Origin: Streptomyces seoulensis
GTDB taxonomy: Bacteria; Actinomycetota; Actinomycetes; Streptomycetales; Streptomycetaceae
Length of the DNA: 64,000 nucleotides
Direction of reading: 5' to 3'
Assembly: GCA_013364255.1 (NCBI GenBank)
Contig: CP054936.1
Location: 6,714,353 to 6,778,352, forward strand
Shown here one piece after another: positions 39,716-46,749 of this stretch; position 1 is the stretch's first letter, and each line of letters starts with the position of its first letter. The notes beneath the pieces were generated by a model, which saw nothing but the letters and a program-made list of their open reading frames with translations, had not been told where the DNA came from and made no database searches. Made by a program: the position numbers and the translations under genes.

Positions 39716-40183
39716 GTGGCCGACAACGCGCGGGCGAAAAGGCTGGCGGACCTCATCCGAGAGGTGGTGGCCCAGAAGCTGCAGCGCGGGATCAAGGACC
39801 CGCGGCTCGGCTCGCACGTCACCATCACGGACACCCGGGTCACGGGCGACCTGCGGGAGGCGACCGTCTTCTACACGGTCTACGGCGACGACGAGGAGCG
39901 CCAGGCCGCCGCGGCCGGCCTGGAGAGCGCCAAGGGCGTCCTGCGCTCCGAGGTCGGCCGTGCGGCCGGAGTGAAGTTCACCCCCACCCTCACCTTCGTC
40001 GCGGACGCCCTCCCGGACACCGCCCGCACCATCGAGGACCTCCTCGACAAGGCGCGCCAGTCCGACGCCGCGGTGCGCGAGAAGTCCGCGGGCGCCGCGT
40101 ACGCCGGCGGGGCGGACCCCTACCGGAAGCCCGGTGAGGAAGACGGGGCCGACGCCGACGAGACGGACGACACCACCGAATGA
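39716..40183 (+). CDS. rbfA: 30S ribosome-binding factor A
   Basis: 155-residue KH-fold assembly factor that matures the 16S rRNA 5' end. The core includes IREVVAQKLQRGIKDPRLG and TVFYTVYGDD, with LRSEVGRAAGVKFTPTLTF at the RNA-binding face. An acidic tail ends DETDDTTE. GTG start at 39716 with GGGAGACGG; an in-frame start at 39650 would add an unconserved leader. The stop overlaps the truB ATG by 4 bp. Confidence 0.95.
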   Translation: MADNARAKRLADLIREVVAQKLQRGIKDPRLGSHVTITDTRVTGDLREATVFYTVYGDDEERQAAAAGLESAKGVLRSEVGRAAGVKFTPTLTFVADALPDTARTIEDLLDKARQSDAAVREKSAGAAYAGGADPYRKPGEEDGADADETDDTTE

Positions 40184-41085
40184 CCAGCAAGCCCACCCCG
40201 CCCGACGGCCTTGTCATCGTCGACAAGCCGTCGGGCTTCACTTCGCACGACGTCGTGGCCAAGATGCGCGGGATCGCCAAGACCCGCCGCGTCGGCCACG
40301 CCGGCACCCTCGACCCCATGGCGACGGGCGTCCTCGTCCTCGGCGTGGAGCGGGCCACCAAGCTCCTCGGCCACCTCGCGCTGACCGAGAAGGAGTACGT
40401 CGGCACCGTCCGCCTCGGGCAGAACACCCTGACCGACGACGCCGAGGGCGAGATCACCTCCGCCGCCGACGCCTCCGGGATCGCCCGCGAGGCCATCGAC
40501 GCGGCCGTCGCCAAGCTGACCGGCGACATCATGCAGGTGCCGTCCAAGGTCAGCGCCATCAAGATCAACGGCGTGCGCTCCTACAAGCGGGCCCGCGAGG
40601 GCGAGGAGTTCGAGATCCCGGCCCGCCCGGTGACCGTCTCCTCCTTCCAGGTGTACGACCTGAGGGACGCCGTCGCCGCCGACGGCACCCCCGTGCTCGA
40701 CCTGGTCGTCTCGGTGGTGTGCTCCTCCGGCACCTACATCCGCGCCCTCGCCCGCGACCTGGGCGCCGACCTCGGCGTCGGCGGCCACCTCACCGCGCTG
40801 CGCCGCACCCGCGTCGGCCCGTACAAGCTGGACGCGGCGAAGACCCTGGACCAGCTCCAGCAGGAGCTGACCGTCATGCCGGTCGCCGAGGCCGCCGCCG
40901 CGGCGTTCCCGCGCTGGGACGTCGACACCCGCCGCGCCGGGCTGCTCGCCAACGGCGTCCGCCTGGAGATGCCCGACGAGTACGCGGGCCGCGGCCCCGT
41001 CGCCGTGTTCACCCCCGAGGGCCGCCTGCTGGCCCTGGTGGAGGAGCAGCGGGGCAAGGCCAAGAGCCTGGCCGTCTTCGGCTGA
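40180..41085 (+). CDS. truB: tRNA pseudouridine-55 synthase
   Basis: 301-residue enzyme that makes pseudouridine 55 in the T loop of tRNAs. The catalytic Asp is D45 in HAGTLDPMATGVL. KEYVGTVRLGQNTLTDDAEG and SGTYIRALARDLG are further family motifs. A C-terminal PUA-like segment is present. Coupled to rbfA through an ATGA overlap, and followed by a strong hairpin that ends the block. Confidence 0.96.
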   Translation: MTSKPTPPDGLVIVDKPSGFTSHDVVAKMRGIAKTRRVGHAGTLDPMATGVLVLGVERATKLLGHLALTEKEYVGTVRLGQNTLTDDAEGEITSAADASGIAREAIDAAVAKLTGDIMQVPSKVSAIKINGVRSYKRAREGEEFEIPARPVTVSSFQVYDLRDAVAADGTPVLDLVVSVVCSSGTYIRALARDLGADLGVGGHLTALRRTRVGPYKLDAAKTLDQLQQELTVMPVAEAAAAAFPRWDVDTRRAGLLANGVRLEMPDEYAGRGPVAVFTPEGRLLALVEEQRGKAKSLAVFG

Positions 41086-41112: not shown

Positions 41113-41156
41113 CGTGGAGCGGCGGCCACAGGACCCCCTGTGGCCGCCGCTCCACG
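41113..41156 (+). terminator. Very strong hairpin terminator after truB
   Basis: A perfect 20-bp stem, CGTGGAGCGGCGGCCACAGG (41113-41132) with its complement at 41137-41156, and an ACCC loop. It separates the ribosome-assembly block from the STAND gene. Confidence 0.9.
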
Positions 41157-41351
41157 ATCTCCCCCGGTTCCCCCACTCCTAGGATGGGTTCCGCCACGCC
41201 GCGCTATTCACCCGACCGCGCGGGCGCTCGGAGTGAACCGGGGGAGTGCGAGGGGGCGCGTTCACCGCGCGATCTTTCCCGCTGATCATTTCCTGCCTAC
41301 CGTCGGAGCATCCGGACACGAAGGTGCGGCGACACGGCGGGAGGCACGACC

Positions 41352-44300
41352 ATGGCGGCACACGACGCGCGGACCACGGCCGCGCCCGCCCGCCGGCCGG
41401 GCGGCGACCGCACGGGCGGCGAACCGGCCGGACCGGGCGCGCGCACCACGACGGGCGGGATCGTCCCGGCGCCGGCCGGCGGCGACACGGAGCCCCCGGC
41501 CGGGGCGGGCCGGCGGCAGGCCGCCGCCGACGCCCTCGACCGCGCCCTGGACGCCTCCCTGGTCTGCCTCCGCGACCTCGCCGGCCGCCCGCGCGGCACC
41601 GGCTTCGCCGCCGACCACCACGGCACGGTCCTCACCAGTCACGAGGCCGTCGACGGCCTCACCCGGCTCGTGCTGCACGCGCCGGGCGCGGGCGGCAGAT
41701 CCTGCGTGGTGGGCGCCGACGCGGTGACACCGCTGCCCGAGCTGGACCTCGCCCTCGTACGGACCGAGGGCCTCGGCGTGGAGCCGCTCCCCGTCACCGC
41801 CCGGGACGCCGTCGGCACCGGCGCCTACGTACGGATCGCGGCCGGCGGCTGGCGCGAGGCCCGGGTCCTCGGCCCGGCCTCCGTGACGTACACCGCCACC
41901 GAGGGCCGCCATCTCCTGGACGGGGCGCTGGAACTGGCCATCGGCACGGCGGGCCGGGACGCGCTGCGCCGGGGCGGCGGCACGGCCGGCGGTCCGGTGC
42001 TGGACGCGGCGACCGGAGCCGTCGTCGCCGTCCTCGGCACGGCGCTGCGCTCCGGCGACCGCGACGCCCGCTTCGCCGTCCCGCTGCGCGCGCCGTCGCC
42101 CGGCCCCGCGCGGGCGGGCGGCGCGGCCCTGACCGAGGGCCCGCTCGCCGACCTGCTCGCCCGCAACGCGGCCACCGTCCCCGCCTACGGCCCCGACCTC
42201 AACCTCGCGGCGGTCCTGGAGCTGACGGCCACCTCGGTGGCCCAGGACGGCCCCCAGGACGCCCTGCCCCGGCACGCCGCCCCCGCCGCGCCCACGGCCC
42301 ACACCCTGTTCTCCGGGTGCGCCGGACCGTACGCCCACCCGGCCCTGCGGACGGCGCCCGCATCCCCGCCGTCCTCCGGCCCCGGCGCGCCGCCCTCCCT
42401 CCCCGCCCCCGTCCCCGGACCCGGTGGCCCGGACATCCCGGTCGCGGGCCTTCCGGCGGCGGACGGCGCCCGCCTGTCGTGGCCGGCCGACACCGAAACG
42501 GCCCCGCCCACCCCCACTGCCCACCACCCCGGCCGTTTCCCGATCCGCGTCGAACGCACGCATACCGCAAGGGAGTTGGATGCCTTCGGCGCCGGCCCGT
42601 CGGTCGTGCTCGGGCTCGTCGGAGCGCCCGGCAGCGGCCGCACGACCGAACTCGCCGCCCTCACCGGCCGCCGCGCCCGGGGCGACGCCCCCACCCCCAC
42701 GCTGTGGCTGCGCGGCGCCGACCTGGACGGCGCGGACGACGGCGTGGCGGACGCGGCGGGCCGCGCCCTGGACCGCGCGGCCCGGATCGTCGCCGCCGCC
42801 CGCGCCCCCTTCCCCACCGAACTGGCCGACCTCACCCCGGCGCGCGTCGCCCGGCTGGCGCACGCCCACGGCCGTCCGCTGCTGCTCCTGCTGGACGGGC
42901 CCGAGGAGATGCCCGCCGCCCTGGACCACCGGCTGGCCGGGTGGACGGACGGCACCGCGCGGTGGCTGCGCGGAACCGGCGCGCGCCTGGTGGTGGCGTG
43001 CCGGGAGGAGTACTGGGAGAGCGCGGCCGCCCGCTTCCCGGCCGGCCTGCTGCACACCCCCGCCCCGCAGGACGACGTACGCGCCGCTCCCACCGAGCCG
43101 CCGCCCGGGCTGCGCCTGGGCGACCTCACACCGGACGAGGCCCGCCGGGCCCGCCTGCGCTACGGCGTCCCGGACGGCGCCCTGGTCGACGCCGACGCCG
43201 GCCACCCCCTCACCCTCCGCCTCCTCGCCGAGGTGCGCGCGGCCCTGCCCGGCCTGCCCGGCCACCCCCCGCTCGACCGCGCCGACGTCCTCGCCGCCCA
43301 CCTCGACCTGATGTGCCTGCGCGTCGCCGTCCGCCTCGCCGCCGAGAACGACCTGCGCGGCACCGCCGTACGGCGGCTCGCGGCCCGGGTCTGCGGGCAG
43401 GTGCACGAGGCCGCCCGCCGCAGCCTCGGCCCCGGTGGGGAGCTGGACCGGGCGACGTTCGAGGCGGTGTTCCCGTGGGGGCCCGCGCCCGCCCGGCTCG
43501 GCGGCGGCACCGGCTGGGCCTCCGCCGTCCTCACCGAGGGCCTGCTCGTCCCGGCCGGCGACGGCTACCGCTTCGCCCACGAGGAACTGGCCGACTGGAT
43601 CCAGGGCGCCCACCTCGACCTGGACGAGGCGCTGCGCGTCCTGGTCCACAAACGGCACATCCCCGGCGAGACACGCCCCGTGCCGCCCGTGCCGCACCAC
43701 CGCATCGGCCCCGTCGTCCACGCCCTGCTGCTCCTGGCCCGCCAGCACGGCACCCGGCGGCTCGCCGTCCGGCTGGAGGAACTGGTGTGCGCGCTGGACG
43801 TGGACCCCGGCGCCTGGTGGCCGTCCCGGCTGCTCACCGGCGTCCTGCTGCGCGTGCCGGACGCGCGGCCCTACGCCGGTGTGCTGCGGCTGCTCGCCGA
43901 GCGGATCGTGGCCTGGCAGCAGTGCGAACTGCCGGTGCCGGACGGCTTCGGACCCGGCTTCTGGACCGCGCTGCACCTGCCGCCGGCCGACCACTGCGAC
44001 CTCCTCCGCCGCCTCCTGCCGACCGATCCGGCGCCCCGGGGGCTGCCGCACGCGGAGAGCGCCGGTGCCGCGCACCCGGGTCCCGCGCCTCTCGACGCCG
44101 GCCGACCGGGTCACGCGCCCACCGGCTCCGCGCCTCCGGACCTCGCGTACGCGGTGGGGTCCGCTTCCGCGGCACGTGGGGGAGTCGCGGAAGGGCCGGG
44201 TCCCGCGCAGGGCTCCGCGCGGCCCTCACCCGGCCCGCGGGAAGCGCCGGGCGCGCACGGCGCACCCGACCGCGTCCAGTCCTCTCAGCACTCCCGGAGC

Positions 44301-45587
44301 GCGCAGGGCTCGCTCCTGGCCCCACCGTCCGCGCCACCGGAGCCCCCCGCGCCCTGCGCGCCCCCCGCGCCCGCCCCTCGCCCGGTCCGCTATCTCGACG
44401 CCGCCGCCCGGCTGCTGGCCGCCGATCCGGTGGCCGTGCAGCCGCATCTCGTCCGCTGGTTCGACGACGAGCGGCCGCTGCCCGCCGCGCCGGACGCCAC
44501 CGTGGCCACGGCCGCCCAGGCGCTGCTGCACACCCACCGGCACCGCGCCCCGGACGACCTCACCGAGACCCTGGTCGAGTCCGCGCACGAGCGGGCCGAC
44601 GAACTGCTCGCCGCGCTCGCCGAGGAGGAGCCGGCCCTGCTCTGCCGTGCCGTCGCCCGGTGGGCGCGCGACGCACGCCCGGACCGGCGCGCCGCCGCGG
44701 TGACGCACGCCCTGCGCACCGTCGAGCACGTCCGTACCGACGCCGACCTCGAAGCGCTGCGCGAGGCCGCGCTGACCCTGCTCGCCCGGCCCGCCGACGC
44801 CGCCCTGCACGGCGGCGCGCTCGCCCTCCTCGTCGCCGACCCGCGCACCCGCGCCCGCCATCTGCCGCGGGCGCTGCGGCACTTCGCCACCGGCGACGCG
44901 AACCTGCCGCCGAGCGCGCTGGCCCCCGCTCTGGTCACCCACCCCGAGGCCGTCCTCGCCGCCTTCGGCGAACGCCTGCGGCACGGGCCCGGCGGCGGTG
45001 CGGCGGAGGCGCTGCGGGTCCTGGCCGATGCGGCCCCGGCCGCGCTCGCTCCGCGCGTGGCCGCCCTGATCAGCGCGGCGGTGGCGCACCGGCCCGACAC
45101 CGCCGGACAGGTGGCCGCCCACGTCGACCGGCGGCTCCAGTCCGGTCCGGTCGCGCGCTCGGCGCTGTTCCCGCTGGTCAACGGCCTCCTGGAGGGCGGT
45201 CCCACACCCCTGCGGGCCGCGCTGGGCGGCGTCCTCGCCACGCCCGGCGCCCCGGACCGCCAGGGGACGCGCCGGGCACTGCTCGACTCGCTGCTGGCCC
45301 ACGAGAGCGACCCGGCCGTGCTGGACGCGGTGCTGCACACCGCCGCCCGCGGCGCCGAGGAGGACCTCGGCGACCTCGTCCGGCGCATCGGCCTGCTCCT
45401 CGTCCGCACCCCTCAAGGCGCGGCCGTCTTCGACCGCGCCCTGACGGAGCTGGGCCGGCACGTGCCCGGCTTCGCCGCCCGCGTGGCGGGCTGGCTGACC
45501 GACGCCCCGCAGGACTGGACCGCGGTGGTGGGCCCCAGCGCCCGCCGTACCCTGCTGGACCTCGCGGCGGCCCCCGCCCTCGCCTGA
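41352..45587 (+). CDS. STAND-type NTPase with degenerate trypsin-like domain and helical repeats
   Basis: 1411-residue protein. Residues 75-245 resemble a trypsin-like fold (GTGFAADHHGTVLTSHEAV; LDLALVRT with D132). However, the Ser of the GDSGGP-type motif is Ala (GTAGGPV, A212), and H97 is one place off the expected LTxxH position. A Pro-rich linker follows. The NTPase part has Walker A GAPGSGRT (424-431) and Walker B LLLLLDGPEE (D515), then winged-helix-like sequence. After another low-complexity linker (about 900-1010) the C-terminus is Ala/Leu-rich repeating helices, HEAT-like. This architecture is that of signal-transducing STAND ATPases; target and trigger are unknown. ATG at 41352 with GGGAGG. 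Confidence 0.82.
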   Translation: MAAHDARTTAAPARRPGGDRTGGEPAGPGARTTTGGIVPAPAGGDTEPPAGAGRRQAAADALDRALDASLVCLRDLAGRPRGTGFAADHHGTVLTSHEAVDGLTRLVLHAPGAGGRSCVVGADAVTPLPELDLALVRTEGLGVEPLPVTARDAVGTGAYVRIAAGGWREARVLGPASVTYTATEGRHLLDGALELAIGTAGRDALRRGGGTAGGPVLDAATGAVVAVLGTALRSGDRDARFAVPLRAPSPGPARAGGAALTEGPLADLLARNAATVPAYGPDLNLAAVLELTATSVAQDGPQDALPRHAAPAAPTAHTLFSGCAGPYAHPALRTAPASPPSSGPGAPPSLPAPVPGPGGPDIPVAGLPAADGARLSWPADTETAPPTPTAHHPGRFPIRVERTHTARELDAFGAGPSVVLGLVGAPGSGRTTELAALTGRRARGDAPTPTLWLRGADLDGADDGVADAAGRALDRAARIVAAARAPFPTELADLTPARVARLAHAHGRPLLLLLDGPEEMPAALDHRLAGWTDGTARWLRGTGARLVVACREEYWESAAARFPAGLLHTPAPQDDVRAAPTEPPPGLRLGDLTPDEARRARLRYGVPDGALVDADAGHPLTLRLLAEVRAALPGLPGHPPLDRADVLAAHLDLMCLRVAVRLAAENDLRGTAVRRLAARVCGQVHEAARRSLGPGGELDRATFEAVFPWGPAPARLGGGTGWASAVLTEGLLVPAGDGYRFAHEELADWIQGAHLDLDEALRVLVHKRHIPGETRPVPPVPHHRIGPVVHALLLLARQHGTRRLAVRLEELVCALDVDPGAWWPSRLLTGVLLRVPDARPYAGVLRLLAERIVAWQQCELPVPDGFGPGFWTALHLPPADHCDLLRRLLPTDPAPRGLPHAESAGAAHPGPAPLDAGRPGHAPTGSAPPDLAYAVGSASAARGGVAEGPGPAQGSARPSPGPREAPGAHGAPDRVQSSQHSRSAQGSLLAPPSAPPEPPAPCAPPAPAPRPVRYLDAAARLLAADPVAVQPHLVRWFDDERPLPAAPDATVATAAQALLHTHRHRAPDDLTETLVESAHERADELLAALAEEEPALLCRAVARWARDARPDRRAAAVTHALRTVEHVRTDADLEALREAALTLLARPADAALHGGALALLVADPRTRARHLPRALRHFATGDANLPPSALAPALVTHPEAVLAAFGERLRHGPGGGAAEALRVLADAAPAALAPRVAALISAAVAHRPDTAGQVAAHVDRRLQSGPVARSALFPLVNGLLEGGPTPLRAALGGVLATPGAPDRQGTRRALLDSLLAHESDPAVLDAVLHTAARGAEEDLGDLVRRIGLLLVRTPQGAAVFDRALTELGRHVPGFAARVAGWLTDAPQDWTAVVGPSARRTLLDLAAAPALA

Positions 45588-45801: not shown

Positions 45802-46749
45802 GTGCAGCGCTGGCGTGGCTTGGAGGACATCCCCCAGGACTGGGGGCGCAGCGTCGTCACCATCGGCTCCTACGACGGAGTCCACCGAGGCCACCAGCTC
45901 ATCATCGAGCACGCCGTGAACCGCGCCCGCGAACTGGGCGTCCCGGCCGTGGTCGTCACCTTCGACCCGCACCCCAGCGAGGTCGTCCGCCCCGGCAGCC
46001 ACCCGCCGCTGCTGGCCCCGCACCACCGCCGCGCCGAACTGATGGCGGACCTGGGCGTGGACGCGGTGCTGGTGCTCCCGTTCACCACCGAGTTCTCGCG
46101 GCTGTCCCCGGCCGACTTCGTGGTCAAGGTGCTGGTCGACCGGCTGCACGCCAAGGCGGTCGTCGAGGGCCCGAACTTCCGCTTCGGCCACAAGGCCGCC
46201 GGGAACGTCGACTTCCTGGCCGAGCAGGGCAAGCTCCACGACTTCGAGGTCGAGGTCGTCGACCTGTACGTCACCGGCTCCGCGGGCGGCGGCGAACCGT
46301 TCTCCTCCACCCTGACCCGGCGCCTGGTCGCCGAGGGCGACGTCGGCGGCGCCCGCGAGATCCTGGGCCGCCCGCACCGCGTCGAGGGCGTCGTCGTGCG
46401 CGGCGCGCAGCGCGGCCGAGAACTGGGCTTCCCGACCGCCAACGTCGAGACCCTCCCGCACACCGCGACCCCCGCCGACGGCGTCTACGCCGGCTATCTG
46501 CACGCCCAGGGCGAGGTGATGCCGGCCGCGATCTCCGTCGGCACCAACCCGCAGTTCGACGGCACCGAGCGCACGGTGGAGGCGTACGCCATCGACCGGG
46601 TCGGCCTCGACCTGTACGGCCTGCACGTCGCCGTCGACTTCCTGGCCTTCGTCCGCGGCCAGGCCAAGTTCGACTCGCTGGACGCCCTGCTGGAGACGAT
46701 GGCCGAGGACGTCAAGAAGTGCCGCGAGATCATCGCGGCGGACGCCTAG
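45802..46749 (+). CDS. ribF: Bifunctional riboflavin kinase / FAD synthetase
   Basis: 315-residue enzyme producing FMN and then FAD. The N-terminal nucleotidyltransferase domain has TIGSYDGVHRGHQ, where the GxxDGxHxGH nucleotide motif is seen. The C-terminal flavokinase domain contains RGRELGFPTANVE and GVYAGYLHAQGEV. GTG start at 45802 with GAGGAG upstream, and a 214-bp gap to the STAND gene. It is normally the next conserved gene after truB, so the STAND gene is an insertion in that order. Confidence 0.95.
   Translation: MQRWRGLEDIPQDWGRSVVTIGSYDGVHRGHQLIIEHAVNRARELGVPAVVVTFDPHPSEVVRPGSHPPLLAPHHRRAELMADLGVDAVLVLPFTTEFSRLSPADFVVKVLVDRLHAKAVVEGPNFRFGHKAAGNVDFLAEQGKLHDFEVEVVDLYVTGSAGGGEPFSSTLTRRLVAEGDVGGAREILGRPHRVEGVVVRGAQRGRELGFPTANVETLPHTATPADGVYAGYLHAQGEVMPAAISVGTNPQFDGTERTVEAYAIDRVGLDLYGLHVAVDFLAFVRGQAKFDSLDALLETMAEDVKKCREIIAADA

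Follow-up and report, generated by a model that had tools for sequence, protein, structure and literature searches.

The open reading frame at 41352..45587 on the forward strand of a 64,000-nucleotide stretch of Streptomyces seoulensis DNA (contig CP054936.1, positions 6,714,353 to 6,778,352; hereafter the window) encodes a protein of 1411 residues, in which an HtrA-like pseudo-protease is predicted to be followed by a STAND module of the NACHT type and by a helical tail resembling HEAT/ARM repeats. The preliminary description had proposed a pseudo-protease joined to a STAND NTPase and a helical-repeat tail, and Pfam, alignments and structure models bear this out; it had overlooked that the Walker A lysine is replaced by Arg430. 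We interpret the protein as an NLR-like scaffold or switch that belongs to the core genome of the Streptomycetaceae and resides in the cytosol. Its dead protease would bind a partner or a peptide, and we give this reading about an even chance of being right.

The open reading frame is a real gene. A scan of genome contigs recovered homologues at 72 loci, all in Streptomyces records, and an ATG start codon with an upstream GGAGG could be selected in 58 of 63 homologous loci. Those 63 proteins (978–1585 residues as delimited) remained once six loci with disturbed reading frames and three incomplete loci had been removed, and together with the window protein they form the alignment used for residue counts (n=64). 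A deeper set holds 20 loci beyond the 72 Streptomyces ones, of which 16 gave rows usable for such counts. Except for the tail, structural statements refer to an AlphaFold2 model of the 1116-residue orthologue L031, built with 64 sequences (predicted local distance difference test score (pLDDT) 88, predicted template modelling score 0.72).

The protease-like head and its active site

The head comprises the following features.
41547..42089, forward strand: HtrA/trypsin-fold domain, residues 66–246, catalytically degenerate (Pfam Trypsin_2, HhoA/Deg1 profile match, L031 model)
41640..41645, forward strand: H97-E98, with Glu in 64/64 where the alignment places the catalytic His (profile and family alignment)
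41745..41747, forward strand: D132, at the position of the catalytic Asp; D 32, G 20, N 11, A 1 (alignment, n=64)
41985..41987, forward strand: A212, at the position of the catalytic Ser; A 61, S 2, C 1 (alignment, n=64)

Residues 82–227 pass the Pfam Trypsin_2 cut-off (32.9 against 27.6 bits), and the family profile matches HhoA and Deg1. The best protease-fold VIA match of the L031 model is Deg1 (3qo6; Z 18.9, root-mean-square deviation (rmsd) 3.5, 183 aligned residues), and MamO (5hma) is matched with Z 18.1 and rmsd 2.7 over 173 residues. As modelled, the head is a trypsin-type double β-barrel of the HtrA/S1C kind. No Pfam PDZ domain was matched in the six proteins scanned; in the L031 model, the protease domain is followed by helices and then by the NACHT region.

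A gapless profile alignment sets the LTNAHVV motif of HhoA against TSHEAV in this protein, which places the catalytic His on E98 and leaves H97 one residue earlier, in a register judged from the sequence alignment only. The earlier statement that the Ser is lost and the His shifted thus holds, with A212 on the nucleophile position and E98 on that of the catalytic His. When the orthologues were aligned at positions 97, 132 and 212, as had been suggested, the His-Asp-Ser triad of an active HtrA protease was found in none; His is absent from position 98 in all 64 sequences of the Streptomyces set and all 16 usable deeper rows. In these deeper rows, position 97 is H in 14, R in one and L in one; position 98 is E in 14 and Q in two; position 132 is G in 13, D in two and N in one; and position 212 is A in nine, S in five, P in one and T in one. 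The exceptions at position 212 within the Streptomyces set are Ser in L027 and L046 and Cys in L009. Five sister-genus rows, L127–L131, carry Ser212 in an SGTP or SGSP context, and for this reason the Ser was probably lost after the His.

The protein stands apart in motif from some other Trypsin_2 places in the same genome. Trypsin_2 is found at 15 places there, three of which (L154, L156 and L157) read TNAHVV with GNSGG and two TAAHCV, as compared to TSHEAV here; the other nine failed the motif filter. Excluding the present gene, the 14 other places lie in open frames of 305–803 residues against 1433 here, and a second Trypsin_2-STAND fusion in the genome was rejected on frame length, not on full architectures.

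An active serine protease was rejected, as the aligned His is gone, the Ser mostly and the Asp often, and the protease looks catalytically dead family-wide. If the enzyme were still active with its triad rearranged, or if H97-E98 served otherwise, for instance to bind a metal, this would account for the retention of the pair in 64/64 sequences (H and E each in 14/16 deeper rows) and for the Ser212 of five deeper rows, L027 and L046; MamO binds metal via a di-His site (PMC4794232). We nevertheless consider either case very improbable, given Ala212 in 61/64 sequences, the absence of Asp132 from 32/64 and of His98 from all 80. MamO of Magnetospirillum is also the closest parallel for work without catalysis, as it combines a trypsin/HtrA fold and a degenerate active site with a non-catalytic task (PMC4794232). 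In contrast to the present protein, it belongs to the magnetosome, carries a TauE domain and lacks a STAND module and a helical tail.

The NTPase module and the helical tail

The remainder of the protein is divided as follows.
42252..42542, forward strand: Pro/Ala-rich linker, residues 301–397, poorly conserved (alignment)
42549..43031, forward strand: predicted NACHT-type P-loop domain, residues 400–560 (L031 model match; sub-threshold Pfam NACHT in L031)
42621..42644, forward strand: Walker A, GAPGSGRT, with Arg430 replacing Lys in 64/64 (alignment)
42879..42911, forward strand: Walker B, LLLLLDGPEEM, with D515, E518 and E519 (alignment)
43002..43004, forward strand: sensor-1-like Arg551, in 64/64 and in 8/16 deeper rows (alignment)
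43104..43661, forward strand: winged-helix and helical part predicted for the STAND module; contains HPL (618–620) and YRFAHEELADW (model, motifs)
44028..44363, forward strand: low-occupancy insert, residues 893–1004 (alignment)
44373..45575, forward strand: predicted HEAT/ARM-like helical tail, residues 1008–1408 (AlphaFold2, fold matches)

The two Pro/Ala-rich segments, 42252–42542 and 44028–44363, are present in few orthologues.

The best VIA match of the L031 model is NLRP3 (7alv; Z 20.1, rmsd 4.3, 403 aligned residues), spanning model residues 204–708. The NTPase therefore appears to be a NACHT-type STAND module with a winged-helix and helical fold, NACHT being the nearest solved STAND class. 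By sequence, the best Pfam NACHT score is 15.8 against a cut-off of 26.7 bits, in L031; the other five proteins scanned gave no NACHT match. The best solved relative by sequence profile is FlhF (E 0.042), through the P-loop alone. As no significant relative was found in this way, the NACHT assignment depends on the model. The animal NLRs NLRP3, NOD2 and NLRC4 (Z 19–20) share the NACHT domain, the winged helix and the helical region, as well as the acidic Walker B, the sensor-1 Arg and a residue resembling the winged-helix His (WH-His). They differ in having Lys where Walker A has Arg here, and the present protein bears a pseudo-protease head and a HEAT/ARM-like tail in place of the leucine-rich repeats.

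The P-loop at 424–431 and D515, both named in the preliminary description, are present and conserved. The replacement of the Walker A Lys extends to 16/16 usable deeper rows, so that the GK[ST] signature is missing throughout. The acidic residues of Walker B are retained (D515 and E518 in 64/64, E519 in 60/64). H743, within YRFAHEELADW, was assigned by motif as the WH-His, a feature of the STAND winged helix (PMC2323615), and is present in 59/64 sequences and 14/16 deeper rows. The Walker A motif of human NLRP1–14 is GxxGxGKT, and the K232A mutation of NLRP3 lowers hydrolysis about three-fold and yields no ASC specks (both from PMC9633759). Arg551 is replaced by G, S or L among L113–L116, L118, L121, L122, L124 and L126, which suggests that the nucleotide switch has eroded further in the deeper genera. 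The module might still bind nucleotide but hardly turn it over, if at all, or might require no nucleotide.

The tail of the window protein, modelled alone with AlphaFold2, reached a pLDDT of 90.9. Most of its 50 listed fold matches are solenoids of the PP2A-A, importin or similar types, with Z up to 13.0, a level that helical repeats can reach through general shape. The models agree with the repeat fold that had been expected for the C-terminal region, and the tail may act as a sensor that binds a ligand or a partner. The highest mean hydropathy over 19 residues is 1.58, and because no segment is strongly hydrophobic, we infer a cytosolic location. Searches against BFVD returned 46 matches at E ≤0.001; they were mixed, several being labelled proteases or polyproteins, and were not used.

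Genomic position, upstream region and distribution

The flanking genes and upstream elements are listed below.
40180..41085, forward strand: truB, upstream neighbour (TIGR00431 above cut-off)
41113..41156, forward strand: terminator-like hairpin after truB, 20 bp, perfect, without a U tract (folding, z -9.4)
41207..41239, forward strand: conserved element upstream of the gene, containing inverted half-sites TTCAC / GTGAA (consensus of upstream regions)
41298..41303, forward strand: conserved TACCGT, a possible -10 hexamer (consensus)
45802..46749, forward strand: ribF, downstream neighbour (NF004160 and TIGR00083 above cut-off)

Matches to the gene were found in 18 of 21 genomes of the genus (G017, one of the misses, and G002, a weak match, both contain pieces of the gene at contig ends) and in 125 of 150 genomes of the Streptomycetaceae, in 9 of 17 genera. 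At E 1e-5, matches were present in 116/147 genomes of the order (1/5 genera) and in 36/394 of the class (1/137 genera; three candidates scored per genome). A smaller class scan gave 13/148, with three beyond the family that were marginal (about 8e-4); in the order and class scans, nothing outside the Streptomycetaceae matched below E 1e-5. Both truB and ribF were found at 66 of the 72 Streptomyces loci, and at least one of them at all 72, the other six loci being cut at contig ends; in the deeper set, both were found at 19 of 20, L124 being the exception. It had been said that the gene interrupts the usual truB-ribF neighbourhood. This is misleading, since 125/150 family genomes match and it is usual in this family for the gene to be flanked by truB and ribF.

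Eighteen genomes with no or a weak match were inspected at ribF. In 16 of them, six belonging to the genus of the window, truB and ribF are separated by 114–412 bp, and the gene gave no match there. The 17-base core of the upstream element survives in two of these, L137 and L139, with 1 and 4 mismatches, and the flanks of the core are similar as well in L139; the other 14 have 5 to 8 mismatches. Because the core is retained, the gene was probably lost in L137 and L139. The gene-less genomes of the window's genus (L135, L136, L137, L139, L142 and L150) measure 5.5–7.6 Mb, but no-match genomes of this genus outside the set inspected at ribF are as large as 9.4 Mb. Altogether, a vertically inherited core gene fits better than a mobile defence gene.

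The consensus of 60 upstream regions reads TTCACCCG...CGGAGTGAACC...TACCGT, followed by the ATG. The core has at most one mismatch in 59/60 regions and is recognisable (1–3 mismatches) in 8 of 19 deeper loci tested; it has one further site in the 64-kb window, at 3 mismatches. Across the 8.35-Mb genome, a longer pattern has a single occurrence at ≤3 mismatches (control 0). RNA structure in the element was rejected, as folding was no better than that of shuffles (z 0.39), and Rfam gave only miRNA matches far under cut-off, all to the truB hairpin. The hairpin stands between truB and the element; of the very strong terminator described at first, the perfect 20-bp stem remains, without the U tract.

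The nine nearby window genes scanned encode RimP, an RnpM-like protein, IF-2, RbfA, TruB, RibF and three opp-type transporter components. By analogy with DAP3/mS29, the protein could bind RNA or the ribosome through its inactive STAND module and be tied to the rimP-infB-rbfA-truB cluster, at whose end the gene is placed; inactive NTPases have been described as nucleic-acid receptors, S29/Dap3 binding single-stranded RNA (PMC8195603). Position by itself is weak evidence, however, the gene is set off from truB by the hairpin and by a conserved upstream element of its own, and the domain scans recognised no RNA-binding family, so that we regard this explanation as decidedly unlikely.

There are also points in favor of a STAND protein for conflict or phage defence that has become fixed in the chromosome, its dead trypsin acting as an effector without enzymatic activity, be it as peptide binder, as dominant-negative or as decoy. 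It can be likened to the inactive trypsins of vWA-MoxR systems; the architecture is of the same kind; its divergence exceeds that of TruB and RibF; and Avs4 is among the full-length Foldseek matches, at a low TM-score. The vWA-MoxR conflict systems likewise contain inactive trypsin and iSTAND/iSTAND2 modules and occur in multicellular bacteria (PMC7159879, PMC8195603). Here, in contrast, protease, NACHT and tail lie on a single polypeptide at a fixed core locus, and no MoxR or vWA gene is among the nine scanned; intervening genes and the rest of the genome were not searched for such partners. The Avs/bNACHT phage-defence STAND proteins, including protease-bearing AVAST, resemble it in combining a STAND switch with an effector and a sensor (PMC12799240 and PMC12169576). 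They differ in that here the protease is inactive, the neighbours are truB and ribF with no nuclease gene, and the core position is fixed. The best PADLOC match is OloA at E 0.66, PHROGs gave no match, the scanned neighbours are translation, riboflavin and transport genes, the junctions are clean where the gene is missing, and the tail is not clearly faster evolving than the other domains. The phage-defence link once proposed is thus unsupported, and we judge a defence role unlikely. Among the functions suggested earlier, scaffold or regulator is favored by our inference, and decoy lacks support.

Selection and functional interpretation

Pairwise ratios of non-synonymous to synonymous substitution rates (dN/dS; NG86, 2011/2016 pairs), which are rough as the genes are GC-rich, have medians of 0.314 for the protease, 0.204 for the bridge, 0.34 for NACHT, 0.305 for the winged-helix part, 0.467 for the helical part and 0.367 for the tail. 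Every domain is under purifying selection, and the value for the dead protease implies that this domain is not decaying. Some genomes without a match, together with inner stops or multi-frame matches at 6 of the 72 loci, might point to a decaying or misannotated gene; to this we assign a negligible probability, as it is contradicted by purifying selection in all domains, by 208 invariant positions in the first alignment (67 rows) and by the confident L031 model. Median protein distances among the 63 sequences are 0.23–0.29 for four domains, as compared to 0.107 for TruB and 0.086 for RibF. The distances of the domains correlate with those of TruB and RibF at r 0.28–0.58, and those of TruB with RibF at 0.39; the protein thus follows its two neighbours roughly as closely as they follow one another.

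In the NLR-like scaffold that we favor, the dead head would bind a peptide or protein and so recruit or regulate another protein. The partner may be an active HtrA-type protease, in analogy to MamO, which promotes MamE-dependent proteolysis, and the role would belong to the resident physiology of the cell or to signalling under stress, not to acquired phage defence. The S1C domain of RsgI9 is a pseudo-protease as well. Several points weigh against this interpretation. The gene has no match in 25/150 Streptomycetaceae genomes; L124 lacks truB in the 2.1 kb preceding the gene, a stretch that its contig does cover, and truB lies 2.4 kb from the first match in L120 and 3.6 kb in L125. L027 and L131 retain Asp132 and Ser212 beside the shifted His, so some residual chemistry might persist in these two, and a Lys-to-Arg change may leave the binding or turnover of nucleotide intact. 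The domains are about 2 to 3 times more divergent than TruB and RibF, as a defence role would also predict. Finally, MamE-like activation is proposed by analogy, and function and partner are putative.

A variant that we find possible but doubtful is a wholly non-catalytic bacterial NLR, whose head and switch were disarmed before the sampled Streptomycetaceae genera split. It would have been kept in the core genome, where the translation cluster ends, as an assembly or RNA/ribosome hub with a conserved operator-like upstream element.

Inactive trypsins and STAND modules in conflict systems are already known, as is MamO as a worked example of a pseudo-protease. No description of the present family was found in the open-access literature, subscription papers being mostly outside the scope of that search. 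The family would represent a natural, family-wide NLR-like case in which both the effector site and the Walker A lysine are replaced while all domains are under selection. It cautions that bacterial trypsin-STAND fusions are not always phage-defence enzymes, and it makes NLR scaffold function without catalysis testable in the genetically tractable Streptomyces.

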